Below are positions 2,880-9,307 of a stretch of DNA of 15,033 nucleotides, piece after piece (the first letter of the stretch is position 1; the number at the start of each line of letters is the position of its first letter). The translations under genes were made by a program, and so were the position numbers. Origin of the DNA: Methanobacteriota archaeon. Lineage in GTDB: Archaea; Halobacteriota; Bog-38; Methanoflorentales; Methanoflorentaceae. The stretch lies in the NCBI GenBank assembly GCA_003170935.1, contig PMYA01000155.1:1-15033 (forward strand), in the 5' to 3' direction. The notes under the pieces are model-generated. The model made no database searches. It saw nothing but the letters and a program-made list of their open reading frames with translations, and was not told where the DNA came from.

Positions 2880-3746
2880 TCATAGCCGGGACGAATTCGG
2901 CTTCGCAGAACTTGGTGCAACGTCCATGCTCCCGGATCTGAGCCACTCAAGATCCAACGTCACATAGGTAAACCCGAGCTTGACGAACGCTTCGGCTATA
3001 GCTGAACTATGTAGAATTATAGCTCTCGCATCCTCCTTGCCGATTTCTATGCGGGCGAAACCGTTATGGTCTCTTACCTTTCCTCTCACGATCCCAATTG
3101 CTTGTAACATCCATTCAGCTTGTCTCACCCTTTCAATTCGCTCTTTGGTGACTATCGTGCCATAAGGAAAAGACGTAAGGAGACACGCGTTGGAAGAAAC
3201 GTTTGCATTCGGTAAGTCGAGCGCTCGCGCGAAGCTTCTCACCTCATCTTTGGTAAGGCCAATCAAAGGTGATGTGACGTTAAATTCTTTCAAAGCTTTC
3301 AGGCCGGGCCTATAGACATTCAGATCGGATGCATTCGTGCCGTCCATAACCGTATTCAAGTGCAGTTCATTAGCCAAGTCACGGAGAGCGCTAAACGTGA
3401 GCTTTTTGCAGTAATAACATCGTTCAGGATCGTTGTGCTTAATTTCTGGTACAATCAAAGGATTGAGAGCAATCGAGAGATGCTTGATGCCTATGGCTTT
3501 AGCCGTTGCAGCAGCGTGTTCAAGCTCGCCGTGACGAAGCGCACCATTATTTACCGTCACGGCAACTGCTGAGTCCCCCAATTCCTGCTTGGCAAGCACT
3601 GCGACCACTGTGCTGTCAACTCCGCCTGAAAACGCTATCAATACACTACGGTGCGAGCGAATATAAGCACGCACTCGTTCGAGTTTGTCATCTTGAAAGT
3701 CGCAGGCGTTTCGTGACGTTTTTTTTCGCCCAGCAGTGGTTGGCAT
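2880..3746 (-). CDS. larE: LarE-type ATP-dependent sulfur transferase (PP-loop), three-cysteine form
   Basis: Predicted LarE, 288 aa, near the family's usual length. LarE adenylates a carboxylate and inserts sulfur during synthesis of the nickel-pincer cofactor of lactate racemase; archaeal homologues may serve other sulfur-insertion reactions. The PP-loop signature SGGVDST is at residues 40-46. RCYYCKK gives C110 and C113, and SNACLLTSFPYG gives C188, where LarE proteins carry the sulfur-related cysteine. The C-terminal LEWLRSGSMD matches the family ending. Having C110, C113 and C188 together fits the LarE subgroup known to bind a [4Fe-4S] cluster that carries sulfur, rather than the one-cysteine type that sacrifices its own cysteine. 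No Shine-Dalgarno sequence is visible; a minus-strand TATA-like CTATTTATC about 25 nt upstream of the ATG suggests a leaderless transcript. It is divergent from a radical SAM gene. No larA, larB or larC is in the window. Confidence 0.88.
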   Translation of the reverse strand: MPTTAGRKKTSRNACDFQDDKLERVRAYIRSHRSVLIAFSGGVDSTVVAVLAKQELGDSAVAVTVNNGALRHGELEHAAATAKAIGIKHLSIALNPLIVPEIKHNDPERCYYCKKLTFSALRDLANELHLNTVMDGTNASDLNVYRPGLKALKEFNVTSPLIGLTKDEVRSFARALDLPNANVSSNACLLTSFPYGTIVTKERIERVRQAEWMLQAIGIVRGKVRDHNGFARIEIGKEDARAIILHSSAIAEAFVKLGFTYVTLDLEWLRSGSMDVAPSSAKPNSSRL

Positions 3747-3828: not shown

Positions 3829-4836
3829 ATGAGCGGGGAAGTTAAGGACAAAAGCGCGGAGATCAAAGCCCTTCTTATTGCAGAGGGGGGAGTTGATATT
3901 GACGAAAGGGTCCTTGGACGTATCACAACTCCCGCCTCAGGGCCAGGAGCGGGCCTAAAGTCGTTCTTTTTACGATTTAAGGGTCACCGGGTTCGTTTAG
4001 GAATAAAACACGATTCTCGGCTTAAGGCATCGCTTGACGGAGACGAGGTAGTCATCCATGATCAAGAAAAAGAGATTGTTCGCGGATATCTCGAAGATGC
4101 CATCGCCCACTGTCCTGGGCAAGTATTTATTACAGTCAGCGAGGTCTGCATTTTCAACTGCCAGTACTGCCCTGTACCACTTCTGGAGGGTTCAGTTAAG
4201 GACCTGAGCGATGTTGAGACCAAGATTTCACGGATTCTTGACGATCCGAAGCTAGCAGACAAGCTAAAGGCTATCTCGTTGACGTCCGGCGTTGAAAAGT
4301 CGGCACAACACGAAGCCGAGCGAATCGCAGTAATTGTTCACGCGCTAAGAGAGAAGTACGATCTCCCAATCGGTGTGTCTGTTTATCCGACCCAAAATTC
4401 AACGAAGCTGTTGAAAGAAGCCGGAGTTGACGAAATAAAGTACAACGTCGAAACGATGGACCGTCAGCTCTTTATCAAAATGTGCCCAGGGCTCTCACTC
4501 GACCTCATATTAGAGGCGCTCAAAGATGCAGTTAGCGTTTTCGGCCGAAACAAAGTGTTTTCGAATATCCTCGTGGGCTTAGGTGAGGACGACAGTTCAA
4601 TTATAAGCGGCATGCACGAACTGATTGAGATGGGTGTGATACCGATACTCAGAGCCGTCGTTGAGCATCCCTTACGCGTCGAAACGGGCATGCGGCGGCC
4701 CTCTGCAGAACGCCTCTTGCGACTCGCACGAAAGGAGCGCGAACTCCTCGACGAGTTTGGTCTGCGAGCCGACATAGCAGAAACGATGTGTGCCCCGTGC
4801 ACTGGCTGCGATCTAATACCACATCGGGATGTCTAA
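3829..4836 (+). CDS. Radical SAM protein of unassigned function with C-terminal CxxCxxC
   Basis: A 335-aa radical SAM enzyme. The motif CIFNCQYC (C107, C111, C114) is the CxxxCxxC that binds the [4Fe-4S] cluster and S-adenosylmethionine. LTSGVEK (151-157), the GVSVYPT strand (182-188), IKYNVETMD (203-211) and SNILVGLGED (245-254) follow the usual barrel order, with a layout reminiscent of biotin-synthase-like enzymes. Residues 1-100 are an N-terminal extension before the barrel. The last 20 residues contain MCAPCTGCDL (C321, C324, C327), which could bind an auxiliary Fe-S cluster or zinc. AAGGAT (3819-3824), four bases before the ATG, is a good ribosome binding site. It is divergent from larE, so a shared sulfur or cofactor pathway is possible. 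I do not recognise the exact family and assign no substrate. Confidence 0.8.
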   Translation: MSGEVKDKSAEIKALLIAEGGVDIDERVLGRITTPASGPGAGLKSFFLRFKGHRVRLGIKHDSRLKASLDGDEVVIHDQEKEIVRGYLEDAIAHCPGQVFITVSEVCIFNCQYCPVPLLEGSVKDLSDVETKISRILDDPKLADKLKAISLTSGVEKSAQHEAERIAVIVHALREKYDLPIGVSVYPTQNSTKLLKEAGVDEIKYNVETMDRQLFIKMCPGLSLDLILEALKDAVSVFGRNKVFSNILVGLGEDDSSIISGMHELIEMGVIPILRAVVEHPLRVETGMRRPSAERLLRLARKERELLDEFGLRADIAETMCAPCTGCDLIPHRDV

Positions 4837-4956: not shown

Positions 4957-5997
4957 TTAAGAGGATAGTGAATCAAAAAAAGCTGGCCAGAATGGATCTT
5001 GTTTTGGTATTGCGAGCTGATTGACCGACCCGTCACGTCGCTTAATTGTCCTTGTTTCTACATCGTCGGTAACCTTCCCAATAATCGACGCATCTATACC
5101 TTCTGAGCGCAGTTTACTGATGACGTTTGCTGAACGGTCTGGTCTAACTGTAATTAGCAAAGAACCTTCAGCGATCGCGGCGACAGGGTCGATTCCAAAG
5201 GTTTCGCATACTATCCTCACCTCATCCGGATAGATGAACGCTTCCTCATGGATCTCCATGCCGACTCCGCTGGCACTCGCTATCTCGTAGAGCCCTCCGA
5301 TAACCCCCCCCTCAGTTGCATCGTGCATCGCTGTTACCCCTCCGGCATCCATTGCCAAAAGGGCATCTGCCACGACCGTCATCTGTCTGCACAACGCCTT
5401 TGCCCTCTCCACTAGAGCCGGGGCGTACCTCTTCAACAGCTCCTTTTCTTTGATAACTGCAAGGATTCCTGCCGTTTCTATTGCAGGCCCCTTAGTCAGA
5501 ATTACGTCGTCACCAGGCGTTGCCCCTGCCGGTGTCACATATCCGTGCTTGTCGGCGATTGCAAACACGGTAACGCCGCCTATGGTCGGAGCAGCAAAGC
5601 CCGGATAGTACCCCGTGTGACCGCCAACAATCGCTATTTCAAGCTCCAAAGCCGCGCTGTGAATGGCGTCTAAGATAGTACGAAAGTCCACTTCATTTGT
5701 CTCGGGAGGCATTAAAAGCGAATAAGTCATGTACCTCGGCTTAACGCCCATGACTGCTACGTCGCTCGCCCCTATATGAACGGTGTACCATCCAAACATG
5801 TCCAAGGGCTGGTGAGGGATGGCGAAGATTGGGTCCTCTGCGATTACGAGGACCTTGTCATTCCCGACATCGATGACCGCCGCATCGACGCCCGTCATCG
5901 GCGGCACGATGACTGTGTCATCGCTCTTGCCCAAACGTGAAAGTAAAAAGGTGGTGAAGATTTCCTGGTCGATCTTTCCGATCTTACGATCTGCCAC
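4957..5997 (-). CDS. AIR synthase-related protein (PurM/HypE/ThiL superfamily)
   Basis: ATP-binding protein of the AIR-synthase fold, 346 aa from the proposed GTG. Visible are GKIDQEIF (7-14), a nucleotide-site region MTGVDAAVID (34-43), VHIGASDVAVMGVKP (73-87), IVGGHTGYYPG (123-133), and AMHDATEGGVIGGLYE (223-238), which resembles HypE. HypE itself ends in a cysteine that carries the carbamoyl/cyano group; this protein ends FFDSLSS, so it is probably not a cyanide-ligand maturase. The start: a longer frame reaches an ATG at 6039, but that would overlap thiN by 56 nt. The GTG at 5997 has GAGG five to seven bases upstream and gives a 14-nt overlap, better suited to translational coupling. The overlap with thiN suggests a related role, perhaps a phosphorylation in thiamine or another cofactor pathway. 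A divergent ThiL-like role is possible but not shown. Confidence 0.75.
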   Translation of the reverse strand: MADRKIGKIDQEIFTTFLLSRLGKSDDTVIVPPMTGVDAAVIDVGNDKVLVIAEDPIFAIPHQPLDMFGWYTVHIGASDVAVMGVKPRYMTYSLLMPPETNEVDFRTILDAIHSAALELEIAIVGGHTGYYPGFAAPTIGGVTVFAIADKHGYVTPAGATPGDDVILTKGPAIETAGILAVIKEKELLKRYAPALVERAKALCRQMTVVADALLAMDAGGVTAMHDATEGGVIGGLYEIASASGVGMEIHEEAFIYPDEVRIVCETFGIDPVAAIAEGSLLITVRPDRSANVISKLRSEGIDASIIGKVTDDVETRTIKRRDGSVNQLAIPKQDPFWPAFFDSLSS

Positions 5998-6571
5998 TAT
6001 AGCGCCTCGCAATTTCACAGATTTCCTCTGAGACATCAATAGGATCGTGCCCTATGAGGACAGAAACAGGCTCCTTGCCAACAGCACCCGTTTCATAGAA
6101 TATCTTCGGGATTGCGCCGCCCGCTGCCTTGATCGCTGCTTGAACTTTCCATGGCATTGAGGCGCCTTCAGTATCCTTGATTTCCTCCGGTTCATTCCTC
6201 CGGTCGATCACGCTAAAAACCCAACCTTTGGATCTGCAATACTTCTCAAGCCATCGGGCCAAAGCGGGGTTACTGGTGAAGTTTATGGCTGCCCTAACAG
6301 ATGAGTCAGTTTTCCTGAACTCTACGAGGAGCCTAGCCATATGACTTGATGCTCCAAATCGAGGCTTGCCTGCTGCGTGAGGCAAACCGTTGACGACAGT
6401 TATCCGTCCTTCTACCCCGAGCACGTCTTCTCGAGTTTCAGCATTTGGAAGCGCATATACGAGGTTAGTTCTGACCTCTGGGATTAGTGCCGCAAACTCA
6501 CTGCATCCCTCAATGAGGTCTAAGGCGAGCGCCATTTTTCCACGCATTTCAATTTGATCGACCTGCTCCAT
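5984..6571 (-). CDS. thiN: Stand-alone ThiN-type thiamine-phosphate synthase
   Basis: ThiN joins the pyrimidine and thiazole phosphates into thiamine phosphate in many archaea, replacing bacterial ThiE. The protein is 195 aa and is a single ThiN domain. Visible family features are ALIPEVRTNLVYALPNA (28-44), GRI (55-57), FGASSHMAR (72-80), R93 and N97 in the RAAINF segment, RRNEPEE (124-130), and YETGAVGKEP (159-168). ThiN is often the C-terminal half of ThiDN or is fused to an HTH domain in the ThiR regulator; here it stands alone. An upstream ATG at 6607 exists, but GGGAGG (6577-6582, minus strand) sits correctly for the ATG at 6571. Its end overlaps the AIR-synthase-like gene by 14 nt. It is divergent from HTH-nadA. 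Whether it is catalytic or a sensor remnant cannot be settled here, but the domain looks intact. Confidence 0.85.
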   Translation of the reverse strand: MEQVDQIEMRGKMALALDLIEGCSEFAALIPEVRTNLVYALPNAETREDVLGVEGRITVVNGLPHAAGKPRFGASSHMARLLVEFRKTDSSVRAAINFTSNPALARWLEKYCRSKGWVFSVIDRRNEPEEIKDTEGASMPWKVQAAIKAAGGAIPKIFYETGAVGKEPVSVLIGHDPIDVSEEICEIARRYSGRS

Positions 6572-6805
6572 CAAATCCTCCCAGGTTCTGATAAGTTTAC
6601 TGAGCAATGCAGATTGCTATCATAAGTAATAATCGGCGTAAACCTGTACTTTTCAACGCAGGTCGCTACCGATTAAGCGCACAAAGATGTGATGAGTTAA
6701 AATAGCGGTGCAAGGCACTAATAGTGAACCCGGACCACCGATTGCCTTTATGTGCCCTTTCAACGTATTTACAGATGGTTACAAATCGGCGCACGCTAGA
6801 CCCAA

Positions 6806-6842
6806 ATGTTACAATTGTTTAATATAACAATTGTTATAACAT
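6806..6842. promoter_or_regulatory. Tandem palindromic operator candidate upstream of nadA
   Basis: TATAACAATTGTTATA (6823-6838) is a perfect 16-bp palindrome. A second ACAATTGT core lies at 6811-6818 inside TTACAATTGTTTAA, with centres 16 bp apart. The whole block is bounded by ATGTTA (6806-6811) and TAACAT (6837-6842), itself an inverted repeat. Its symmetry suits a dimeric HTH protein, and the adjacent gene encodes one. It lies about 95 bp before the nadA ATG and 235 bp before thiN. An alternative is that TTTAATATAA here is itself a TATA element. Confidence 0.55.
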
Positions 6843-6935: not shown

Positions 6936-8153
6936 ATGCAAAACAAACGATTCCCATGTGAGATCGCAGTTTGGCGCATCCTGCCCACCATCCGCTCCGA
7001 GATTGCTAAACAACTAGCTAGCCTCGGCCTGCCTCAGATGGTGATTTCAAAGCGGCTCGGTATTACGCAGCCTGCAGTAAGCCAGTACGTGACGAAAAAA
7101 CGAGGGATGACCTTCGCAGTTAGTGATGAGGCTCAAACACTCATCCAATCGCTAGCAGAAGACGTCGCACGTGGAAAAGACCTTAATCTCAACGAGCGGA
7201 TGTGTGAGATATGCGCGAACGTCCAAGGCAATGATAAATGCACCTTTGAGTCGATATCTATGAAAAATCGTTTAAGAACACTGAAAGAGGAGAACAACGC
7301 CGTTATTTTAGCGCATAACTATCAATGCGCAGAGGTTCAGGATATCGCCGACTACGTGGGGGATTCGTTTGAGCTTTCAAAAATCGCATCTGAGCTTGAT
7401 TGCTCGACAATCGTGTTTTGCGGTGTCGATTTCATGGCAGAAATCGCCGCCATTCTTTCGCCGGAAAAGAGTATACTTTTACCAGTGAAAGAAGCGATAT
7501 GCCCGATGTCGCGTATGATTGGCCGAAACGACGTACGACAACTGAAGAAACGCTATCCAGAGGCCCCGGTCATATGCTACGTAAACACCTCAGCTGACGT
7601 TAAGGCTGAGTGCGACGTGTGTTGCACGTCAGCAAACGCCATAAAGATCATAAACGAGCTTGACGCAGACCGAATCGTGTTTGTCCCCGATCGAAATCTC
7701 GGGGACTATCTCGCGTTAAAGACTGACAAAGAGATCATCTCGTGGGACGGCTTTTGTCCGACACACCAAATGATTACTCTTGGAGATGTACTTATCAAAC
7801 GGCAGGAACAGCCGGACTGCGAGATCGTGGTGCATCCTGAGTGTCGACCTGAAGTTATCGCAGCGGCAGACTTTGTTTACGGAACGGGGGGCATGTTACG
7901 TCACGCTTCGAGAAGCACCGCACGTCATATCGCCATCGGAACCGAGGTAGGCATGCTCCATCGGCTCGCGACGCAGGAACCAAGCAAGGAATTTACTGCA
8001 CTCACTAACGCTATTTGCCCGAACATGAAGCGCACACACCTTGAGGACGTGATCCACGCTCTCGAACAGACGAAACATCGTGTCACCGTACCTGAGGACG
8101 TTCGCAAAGACGCTAAAAAAGCTCTTGACAAGATGCTTGAGATGGGCGTCTAG
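6936..8153 (+). CDS. nadA: Quinolinate synthase NadA fused to an N-terminal COG2522-type HTH domain
   Basis: NadA condenses iminoaspartate with dihydroxyacetone phosphate to quinolinate, the NAD precursor, using a [4Fe-4S] cluster. This 405-aa protein has two parts. Residues 1-105 are a predicted DNA-binding module: FPCEIAVWRILPTIRSEIAK (6-25), an HTH with ISKRLGITQPAVSQYVTKKRG within 37-57, and a cysteine group C90, C93, C102 (MCEIC...KC). This matches archaeal COG2522 regulators, some of which are fused to ThiN (ThiR). Residues about 109-405 are a complete NadA: AHNYQCAEVQDIADYVGDS (126-144), FCGVDFMAE (161-169), NTSADVKAE (217-225), HPECRPEV (300-307), AICPNMKRTHLEDV (359-372). The expected cluster ligands are C162, C303 and C361. 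The frame is continuous with no Shine-Dalgarno sequence at either the ATG or at M109, so the fusion looks real. An iscU gene follows. The fusion suggests an enzyme that also regulates transcription, possibly its own. Confidence 0.9.
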   Translation: MQNKRFPCEIAVWRILPTIRSEIAKQLASLGLPQMVISKRLGITQPAVSQYVTKKRGMTFAVSDEAQTLIQSLAEDVARGKDLNLNERMCEICANVQGNDKCTFESISMKNRLRTLKEENNAVILAHNYQCAEVQDIADYVGDSFELSKIASELDCSTIVFCGVDFMAEIAAILSPEKSILLPVKEAICPMSRMIGRNDVRQLKKRYPEAPVICYVNTSADVKAECDVCCTSANAIKIINELDADRIVFVPDRNLGDYLALKTDKEIISWDGFCPTHQMITLGDVLIKRQEQPDCEIVVHPECRPEVIAAADFVYGTGGMLRHASRSTARHIAIGTEVGMLHRLATQEPSKEFTALTNAICPNMKRTHLEDVIHALEQTKHRVTVPEDVRKDAKKALDKMLEMGV

Positions 8154-8242: not shown

Positions 8243-8695
8243 ATGTATAGCGACAAAGTAATGCTACATTTTATGAACCCGCACAATATGGGGGAGATCG
8301 AAAACCCAAGCGGTGTGGGTGAGGTCGGGAACCCGGTGTGTGGCGACCTGATGCAGATTCAGATTAAGGTGGAAGACGGGATTCTTACCGACGTCAAATT
8401 CAAGACGTTCGGCTGCGGGGCGGCTATCGCCACGAGCAGTATGGTAACCGATTTGGCGATGGGGAAGACGATTGAAGAGGCCTTAAAGATTACACGTAAC
8501 GACGTGGCCGAGAGCCTTGAGGGGTTGCCGCCGGTGAAGATGCACTGTTCAAATCTGGCTGCAGACGCACTCCACGTGGCAATTGAGGATTACTTGAAGA
8601 AAGAGGGGCGTGGCGAGTGGCTTGACGGTAAGAAGAAGGGCCCAAAGAAAAAGCCTGCAACAAGAAAGAGCGTGAAACGCCAGCAGACCGGCTAA
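8243..8695 (+). CDS. iscU: IscU/NifU-type Fe-S cluster scaffold protein
   Basis: Scaffold on which [2Fe-2S]/[4Fe-4S] clusters are built before transfer to apoproteins. It is 150 aa; the conserved part is residues 1-128. The three cluster cysteines are C33 (NPVCGD, with D35), C58 (FGCGAA) and C102 (MHCSNLAADAL). LPPVK (95-99), the site bacterial HscA recognises on IscU, is retained. The last ~20 residues are a lysine/arginine-rich tail (KKGPKKKP and following) not found in typical IscU. AAGGAG four bases before the ATG is a strong ribosome binding site. It lies 89 bp after nadA on the same strand, and NadA needs a [4Fe-4S] cluster, so joint expression is plausible. No cysteine desulfurase (IscS/NifS) gene is beside it. 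Confidence 0.92.
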   Translation: MYSDKVMLHFMNPHNMGEIENPSGVGEVGNPVCGDLMQIQIKVEDGILTDVKFKTFGCGAAIATSSMVTDLAMGKTIEEALKITRNDVAESLEGLPPVKMHCSNLAADALHVAIEDYLKKEGRGEWLDGKKKGPKKKPATRKSVKRQQTG

Positions 8696-8732: not shown

Positions 8733-9249
8733 CTACTCAGCATTTATTCGTGCCAAGACATCGGTGGCAGCCTCATCACCAACACGCGTGAGGTCCACCC
8801 CACCATTTTTTAGCAAGATGAGCGTTGGATATTCACTAACCCCCCGTTGACGTGATGACTATCCCAGGATAACTCGCCTGTGGCACAAATCCTGGATCGC
8901 CTTCATAAAGGACGGTAACAACATACCCTTCATTAGTGTATTGGGCAATCGCTGCCTCACAATAAGGACAGCCGCGTTCCGCGTAAATCGTTACGCTTTT
9001 TGTTGTTGTGGTGGTGAAAGGAGTTGGAGTCGGCGTTGACGTTGGAGTCGGCGTTGACGATGGCGTAGGAGTCGGCGTGGGAGTAACTGCCTGAACGCTA
9101 GAAGTCGCTTTCGATGAAATCGTCTGAGTCGACGAGTTATTAGCAGTCGATTGAGTCGGTGACGCGGTTGGTCCACTGCATCCAGCTGCTATTACGCAAA
9201 AAAGCAACACGGCACACACTGCTAATGTAGCTGTTTGTTTTTTCGTCAA
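8733..9249 (-). pseudogene. Glutaredoxin-like lipoprotein interrupted by a +1 frameshift in a G6 run
   Basis: Predicted membrane-anchored thiol-disulfide protein facing outside. The TTG at 9249 has GAGGTG just upstream and gives a lipoprotein signal: MTKK, a hydrophobic stretch, and lipobox IAAGC (cysteine 24). Residues 25-80 are a Ser/Thr/Pro linker with TPTPTP repeats. From 85 follows VTIYAERGCPYC, with a glutaredoxin CPYC at 94-97. The frame stops at 8836-8838 right after a run of six G (8840-8845). Removing one G continues the frame as VSEYPTLILLKNGG... to a TAG at 8733-8735, adding 35 residues with the thioredoxin-fold cis-proline motif YPTL and giving 171 aa. As written the product is a 137-aa truncated protein. 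The cause may be a real mutation, slippage or phase variation, or a sequencing error. The repaired end is 37 bp from the iscU stop. Confidence 0.78.
9024..9059. repeat. Two perfect 18-bp tandem repeats in the lipoprotein linker
   Basis: TTGGAGTCGGCGTTGACG occurs twice in a row (9024-9041, 9042-9059), followed by a degenerate continuation to about 9085. On the minus strand it encodes the Ser/Thr-Pro repeats of the lipoprotein's linker. Such repeats can change in number by slippage, so linker length may vary between strains. Confidence 0.8.
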
Positions 9250-9296
9250 ACTTACACCTCGACAAAGTAATAAGTCACTTTGGATGCAAAAAGACT

Positions 9297-9307
9297 CCAA
9301 TATACAT
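9297..9307 (-). promoter_or_regulatory. TATA-like element for the lipoprotein gene
   Basis: On the minus strand ATGTATATTGG is TATA-like and would start transcription near 9275. That leaves a short leader containing the GAGGTG ribosome binding site of the TTG start at 9249. It argues against the upstream in-frame TTG at 9300, which would lie inside the promoter. Confidence 0.35.

Follow-up and report, generated by a model that had tools for sequence, protein, structure and literature searches.

A quinolinate synthase fused to a putative sulfur- and Fe-S-responsive HTH regulator in an archaeal genome

Introduction

Regulators in which an HTH domain is fused to an enzyme are already known. One of them is ThiR, an archaeal thiamine regulator made of an HTH and a ThiN domain, and HTH+ThiN proteins occur at three loci in related genomes (L280, L282 and L286). 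The protein described here is encoded in a window of 15,033 nucleotides, the whole stretch of DNA that was analysed, and resembles ThiR in that a related archaeal HTH precedes a biosynthetic enzyme domain in one chain. It differs in its partner, the quinolinate synthase NadA with its cluster ligands kept, and in a sulfur-related operator and neighbourhood; unlike its family, the three ThiR-type proteins also have no N-terminal PC motif. Pfam found no ThiN domain in the fused protein, ThiN being encoded by a separate divergent gene.

NadR, NiaR, NrtR and NadQ are regulators of NAD metabolism, and in NadR, too, an HTH is joined to NAD enzymes. They and the present protein would have in common the control of genes for NAD biosynthesis, but they belong to other domain families, and none of their domains was found in it at E <= 1 with Pfam or NCBIfam. 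In bacteria, cysteine desulfurase, scaffold and sulfur genes are controlled by the HTH regulators IscR, SufR and CymR, which are partly Cys-bearing and autoregulated. The parallel lies in HTH regulation of sulfur and Fe-S genes, whereas the window protein has an HTH_3-like domain and an archaeal operator, ACAATTGT; Pfam detected in it neither Rrf2 nor any other named regulator family at E <= 1. NadA is also joined to a protein of sulfur and Fe-S supply in plastids, where SufE3 fuses it to the desulfurase activator SufE. SufE, however, is not a DNA-binding domain, and SufE-NadA fusions are, as far as we are aware, confined to plants. The stand-alone NadA proteins of Halobacteriota are the same enzyme without an HTH in the chain, the 297-aa relatives showing 70-85% identity.

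In the literature searched, which included few subscription papers, we found neither an HTH-NadA fusion nor a comparable archaeal sulfur regulator with its operator. The main text of PMC11237513 has no occurrence of quinolinate or NadA, passages of PMC12068725 describe no HTH-NadA fusion or archaeal sulfur regulator like that of the window, and the literature matches listed for IssR1, possibly the name of an Fe-S regulator, concerned ISSR markers or unrelated subjects. Thus, while HTH-enzyme fusions as such are familiar, we found no description of HTH+NadA or of its archaeal sulfur regulon. The control of sulfur and Fe-S supply has, it seems, been little charted in methanogens and related archaea. 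These archaea depend heavily on Fe-S proteins (PMC9431491).

Results

The original prediction, made from the window alone, held that a single continuous frame encodes an HTH module and a complete NadA, and this was borne out by an ATG-to-TAG frame of 405 aa at 6936-8153 (Table 1). A search for the same architecture, which had been proposed with it, returned seven further proteins matching over the full query (396-405 aa, 85-98% identity) among the 120 matches listed of 7998 scored candidates, and no fusion outside this group was seen among those 120. In all eight fused proteins, the frame across the junction is unbroken and its length unchanged.

Table 1. Positions of the fused gene, its parts and neighbouring features in the window
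Feature	Position	Strand	Remarks
LarE-type ATP-dependent sulfur transferase	2880..3746	-	TIGR00268 above cut-off
Radical SAM protein	3829..4836	+	homologue in the G197 sulfur island
AIR-synthase-like protein (AIRS)	4957..6039	-	overlaps thiN; below every NCBIfam cut-off listed
thiN (PF10120)	5984..6607	-	divergent from the fusion; two-gene unit with AIRS
Weaker tandem copy of the predicted operator, TGTTACAATTGTTTAA	6807..6822	.	10.0 bits
Predicted operator, perfect 16-bp palindrome TATAACAATTGTTATA	6823..6838	.	97 nt before the ATG; 19.6 bits
Fused gene, putative HTH regulator domain + NadA	6936..8153	+	405 aa; architecture shared by P0002-P0008
HTH domain, residues 1-106	6936..7253	+	helices 34-41 and 45-52; C8/C90/C93/C102; family alignments, AF2 model
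Junction/linker, residues 107-111	7254..7268	+	M109 = position of the stand-alone NadA start codon in split relatives
NadA domain (PF02445)	7269..8141	+	cluster Cys C189/C274/C361; Pfam, alignments
IscU/NifU Fe-S scaffold, downstream of nadA	8243..8695	+	TIGR03419 above cut-off

The C-terminal part matches PF02445 over residues 112-402 (E 7.5e-116; profile positions 2-295 of 295), and the fused protein scores above the cut-offs of NF006878 and TIGR00550 in NCBIfam. Alignment to NadA of T. maritima, whose ligands we take to be C81, C168 and C254 in native numbering (chain index equal to native number + 7, as derived from the alignment), identified C189, C274 and C361 as the cluster cysteines, and all three are invariant in an alignment of 41 NadA sequences. 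The complete domain and C361 of the original prediction are thus retained, while its other two proposed ligands are replaced: C162 is matched by a Leu, and the Cys in HPEC is C303. By-eye mapping onto the T. maritima alignment showed that H127, Y129, S144, Y215, N217, S232, H300, E302 and T317, the roles of which are presumably those known from NadA structures, are kept; the position of T. maritima S209 is G316, a change common to shorter relatives (P0009). The C-terminal part is probably an ordinary, active quinolinate synthase. QRPTase_C (nadC-type) matches were found in 7/7 genomes of the genus. Elsewhere in the source genome, a short degenerate piece resembling a NadA N-terminus lies close to a contig end (G000:C130:163-342, L002).

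The N-terminal HTH was weak in single-sequence Pfam searches (HTH_23, E 0.025; HTH_3, E 0.13), and all 15 aligned family members matched HTH_3 at E <= 1, the best at 2.2e-07. An AF2 model of the domain contains five helices (mean pLDDT 81), with 34-41 and 45-52 as the HTH pair; Foldseek found no PDB match to it at E <= 0.001. In the full-length model, a helix at 101-120 runs into NadA, pLDDT is under 50 at 99-104 and the HTH part has low confidence. An N-terminal HTH module with C90, C93 and C102 had been predicted and stands, together with a fourth family-wide Cys, C8, that had been overlooked; all four are invariant in 30 aligned sequences. Family alignments also showed P7, W13, R20, A47, S49, Y51, K55, R56 and G57 to be invariant alongside C8, C90 and C93. 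The label COG2522, given to the module in the original prediction, occurs nowhere in the literature searched.

The HTH has numerous relatives with the length of a stand-alone protein: 3179 of 4884 candidates scored E <= 1e-10 (120 matches listed), and the HTH profile matched at E <= 1e-8 in 194 of 246 genomes from the phylum. As read from the scores, the family falls into two groups, and the window HTH belongs to the higher-scoring group A, scoring 146.6 bits against profile A2, built with its own sequence among others. We compiled 80 group-A loci, hand-picked among the matches listed at one to five per genus, and hence neither random nor independent; three of them (the window, L005 and L006) entered through NadA and are omitted from counts out of 77. 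Of the 80 loci, 78 have the N-terminal PC motif, all 80 the CxxC, 65 a third downstream Cys and 64 the complete four-Cys pattern; the third downstream Cys is absent from the remaining 15, as well as from L113, a locus with a good site. The fused copy is the only group-A HTH found in the source genome; because that genome is only 77% complete, a second copy may be missing. The top HTH-profile scores came from proteins of 213-219 aa (P0122-P0133), two of which (P0122 and P0123) carry two HTH copies in tandem. A paralogous group B from the same phylum (L225-L244) includes one locus, L244, that resembles a shortened group-A copy.

In all six other genomes available for the genus (G001-G006), HTH and nadA form neighbouring but distinct genes, overlapping by 4 nt or lying 2-6 nt apart. 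In five of them the two genes differ in frame, the ATG of nadA and the stop codon of the HTH overlapping in one genome and being 2 nt apart in four; in the sixth they share a frame interrupted by TAG. The NadA frame of G004 has undetermined bases. Counted by eye, the NadA ATG follows the last Cys codon of the HTH after 18 nt and in frame in the window, after 20 nt at L005, L006, L007, L008 and L031, and after 21 nt with the in-frame TAG at L004. The original prediction had treated homologues split by a stop codon or frameshift at the junction as evidence against a fusion. Such splits are present in all six genomes, and the fused form nonetheless recurs in seven further proteins with the frame kept, so the split relatives indicate a derived fusion, not an abolished one.

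A NadA tree of 52 rows, from which the shortened row P0026 was left out, placed the eight fused rows on one side of a single branch with support 67/92, and seven of the eight together at 100/96. The surrounding rows are split (five genomes of the genus) or have the length of NadA alone. Since all six other genomes of the genus are split and the fused rows fall on one side of a single branch, the fusion is derived and most likely arose once; a change in the small gap between the adjacent HTH and nadA genes would have brought both into one frame. We dropped derivation of the HTH from the adjacent ThiN by splitting of a ThiR, because the HTH of the genus pairs with nadA with or without adjoining thiN, and ThiN is a gene of its own in the G197 island as well.

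The original prediction had proposed 6806-6842 as the DNA target, and both the predicted operator and its weaker copy fall inside this interval. The operator is the sole strong family site in the window, and its palindrome stands before the HTH gene in identical form in five of the six other genomes of the genus and with one mismatch in G005. Its core, ACAATTGT, was taken from the genus and searched for within 250 bp upstream of HTH genes outside it, where it occurred at 41 of 77 loci against 0.5 expected (letter shuffles, maximum 3 in 200) and at none of the 20 group-B loci. A 16-bp matrix (consensus wtTmACAATTGTkAaw) scored at least 14 bits at 50 of 77 loci and 0 of 20 in group B, having been trained partly on the same 77 loci, whose related genomes are not independent; in 22 of the 77, no upstream site reached 10 bits. 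This upstream analysis used six-frame profile matches, because antisense ORFs masked 26 of the 80 group-A HTH ORFs when neighbours were tabulated. The pattern extends to a Thermococci archaeon MAG, in which a tandem HTH-nadA gene pair has the site CTTAACAATTGTTAAG (L113). TATA-like matches lay 0-30 nt before the site in 21 of 55 cases, an uncontrolled count that would fit a repressor. With the only strong operator of the window in this interval, the HTH+NadA protein probably binds DNA at 6806-6842.

To see where sites lie genome-wide, we examined four near-complete genomes selected for having group-A loci. The form TTMACAATTGTKAA gave 17 sites and no control matches: 8/8 within 35 kb in G197, 4/4 within 11 kb in G177, 2/2 within 0.6 kb in G016 and three dispersed sites in G139. 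Thirteen sites were counted in the genus, nine of them at the HTH promoter; the other four (G000:C79:7337, G003:C1:68611, G002:C63:30333 and G004:C73:27910), three of which share TCACAATTGTTA, lie elsewhere, and the genes beside those of G000, G003 and G004 had no evident sulfur link. Within the genus, therefore, the protein may control its own locus only. A large regulon of the fused HTH in its own genome was not supported, with two sites in G000 against one in the control.

The genes surrounding group-A HTH loci largely concern sulfur. Neighbouring ORFs were clustered and representatives checked by Pfam and NCBIfam, with MoaD, MetX, CysE, ThiI and TtuA named by eye. Among the 80 loci, we counted cysteine desulfurase at 31, LarE at 28, FdhD at 21, NadA and MoeB/ThiF at 20 each, IscU at 11, MetY and MoaD at 10 each, MoaE at 9, and CysK and CysE at 8 each. 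With the three loci that entered through NadA set aside, 17 of 77 contained NadA, and one of these (L076) was taken as a longer stretch because NadA lies 3 kb away, as was L077 of group B. Of the 22 group-B loci used for neighbours (20 for upstream sites, L077 and L084 being below 85 bits), 13 had desulfurase, 8 IscU, 1 NadA and none LarE; since desulfurase and IscU are common there too, that context is not specific to group A.

Sites of at least 15 bits were found before HTH, desulfurase, NadA, MoeB, MetY, LarE and other genes, and sites also precede HcyBio, TusA and PdxS/ThiN-AIRS. The sulfur island of G197 contains MetX, MetY, desulfurases, FdhD, a homologue of the radical SAM protein in the window, NadA, MoaE and the HTH, as well as LarE, CysE, CysK, MoaD, MoeB, PdxS, a ThiN-AIRS pair (L274) that resembles the pair in the window and has an operator-like site in front, and genes without evident sulfur link. 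In nadA upstream regions outside the genus, a site of at least 12 bits occurred in 9 of 76, about 2.4 being expected; six of the nine loci have an HTH gene in the flank and three (L138, L142 and L157) do not. Neighbours and sites together point to a role of the HTH family in sulfur trafficking and nadA.

The window has a comparable setting. G003 is syntenic with it for LarE, radical SAM, AIRS, ThiN, HTH, NadA, IscU, rfbD and rfbA, and carries about 5 kb extra between ThiN and the HTH, with MetY (PF01053) and, by eye, MetX- and FdhD-like genes. The operator lies between metY and HTH-nadA-iscU in G003 and between thiN-AIRS and the fusion in the window; this synteny and operator position place the fusion within a sulfur/Fe-S gene island. 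The radical SAM protein of the window has MSMEG_0568-family similarity below cut-off and recurs in sulfur islands (L195:1169; L196:8412), and in G197 and G213 the radical SAM gene has a site variant, ATTCACATATGTGAAT, upstream. At 8836-9300, the window also encodes a low-complexity Thr/Pro/Ser-rich protein with a signal-like start, a CPYC glutaredoxin-like motif and a weak Pfam match, and related pieces occur at the same place in G003.

Discussion

Drawing on the fusion, its split relatives, the operator, the conserved Cys and the regulon context, all read from sequence, we consider it rather likely that the protein is an autoregulatory, sulfur/Fe-S-responsive repressor fused to a NadA with intact cluster ligands. 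The N-terminal four-Cys HTH would be the regulator of an archaeal sulfur/Fe-S-trafficking regulon, binding a palindrome with the core ACAATTGT, presumably as a dimer. From its own promoter site, it would repress the fused gene, probably the downstream iscU and possibly the divergent thiN-AIRS unit. We infer that the protein likely responds to the supply of sulfur or Fe-S clusters, sensed through a metal or Fe-S site at C8/C90/C93/C102, and that a shortage of either would make it leave the promoter. Regulation and catalysis were probably both retained after fusion. NadA bears a labile cluster and relies on desulfurase and scaffold, features that would account for the control of nadA by an Fe-S regulator.

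Several other readings have to be weighed. That assembly or sequencing joined two genes might be suspected of a MAG-type genome in 186 contigs, and one fused relative (P0008) lacks nine residues around window C162, by natural variation or sequence error. Nevertheless, jgi, ncbi, ena and lgn sources together supply the seven further full-length fused sequences, of which two represent clusters of 64 and 71 members; because these database proteins have the same architecture, such an artefact is extremely unlikely. The original prediction saw a possible self-regulating NAD enzyme; in this reading, the HTH would answer to NAD status, as in NadR, or to whether NadA is occupied by quinolinate or its precursors. 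The two domains in one polypeptide, an operator at the gene's own promoter and the excess of sites before nadA in other lineages would agree with this, but the same HTH is found alone elsewhere with sites mainly before sulfur genes, and its existence as a separate protein in the other six genomes of the genus implies sensing without need of NadA fusion. As the neighbours and sites of the family mostly belong to sulfur and Fe-S trafficking, with nadA one target among many, an NAD regulon is disfavoured, though NAD targets other than nadA are conceivable; NAD or quinolinate sensing may occur, nothing specific pointing to it, and we regard the self-regulating enzyme as decidedly improbable.

The fusion could also be neutral or partly bypassed, with an internal start near M109 yielding free NadA while the HTH works unchanged. 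M109 does match the start of the 297-aa NadA in split relatives, but P0004 and P0005 have Lys and Ala there, and a separate NadA product is accordingly less likely for this pair, although GTG or TTG starts would still be compatible with the protein letters. With the junction frame unbroken and of constant length in all eight proteins, we judge a bypass quite unlikely. A further reading makes the NadA [4Fe-4S] cluster the present sensor, its loss altering DNA binding through the linker and tying Fe-S status to the regulon. Invariant cluster Cys, the short helical link in the model and the lone group-A HTH found in the genome are in its favour; on the other side, a conserved Cys set belongs to the HTH itself and occurs elsewhere without NadA, a second HTH copy may be missing from the incomplete assembly, and the HTH part and residues 99-104 are of low confidence in the full-length model. 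It appears unlikely, though by no means negligible.

Under the preferred reading, an autoregulatory sulfur/Fe-S repressor fused to NadA, the locus leads to a candidate for a widespread regulator that is open to testing, its operator being named and its regulon predicted. It also constitutes a natural experiment, in which the regulator is covalently joined to NadA, one Fe-S enzyme of that predicted regulon, and comparison of split and fused forms would reveal whether fusion to the enzyme alters sensing. There is, in addition, a small but appreciable chance of a direct switch from Fe-S enzyme to DNA, the sole repressor copy being coupled to NadA and the state of the exposed [4Fe-4S] cluster deciding operator binding. 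If so, an Fe-S-consuming enzyme would itself report on Fe-S supply, atop an undescribed and widespread archaeal sulfur-trafficking regulon.
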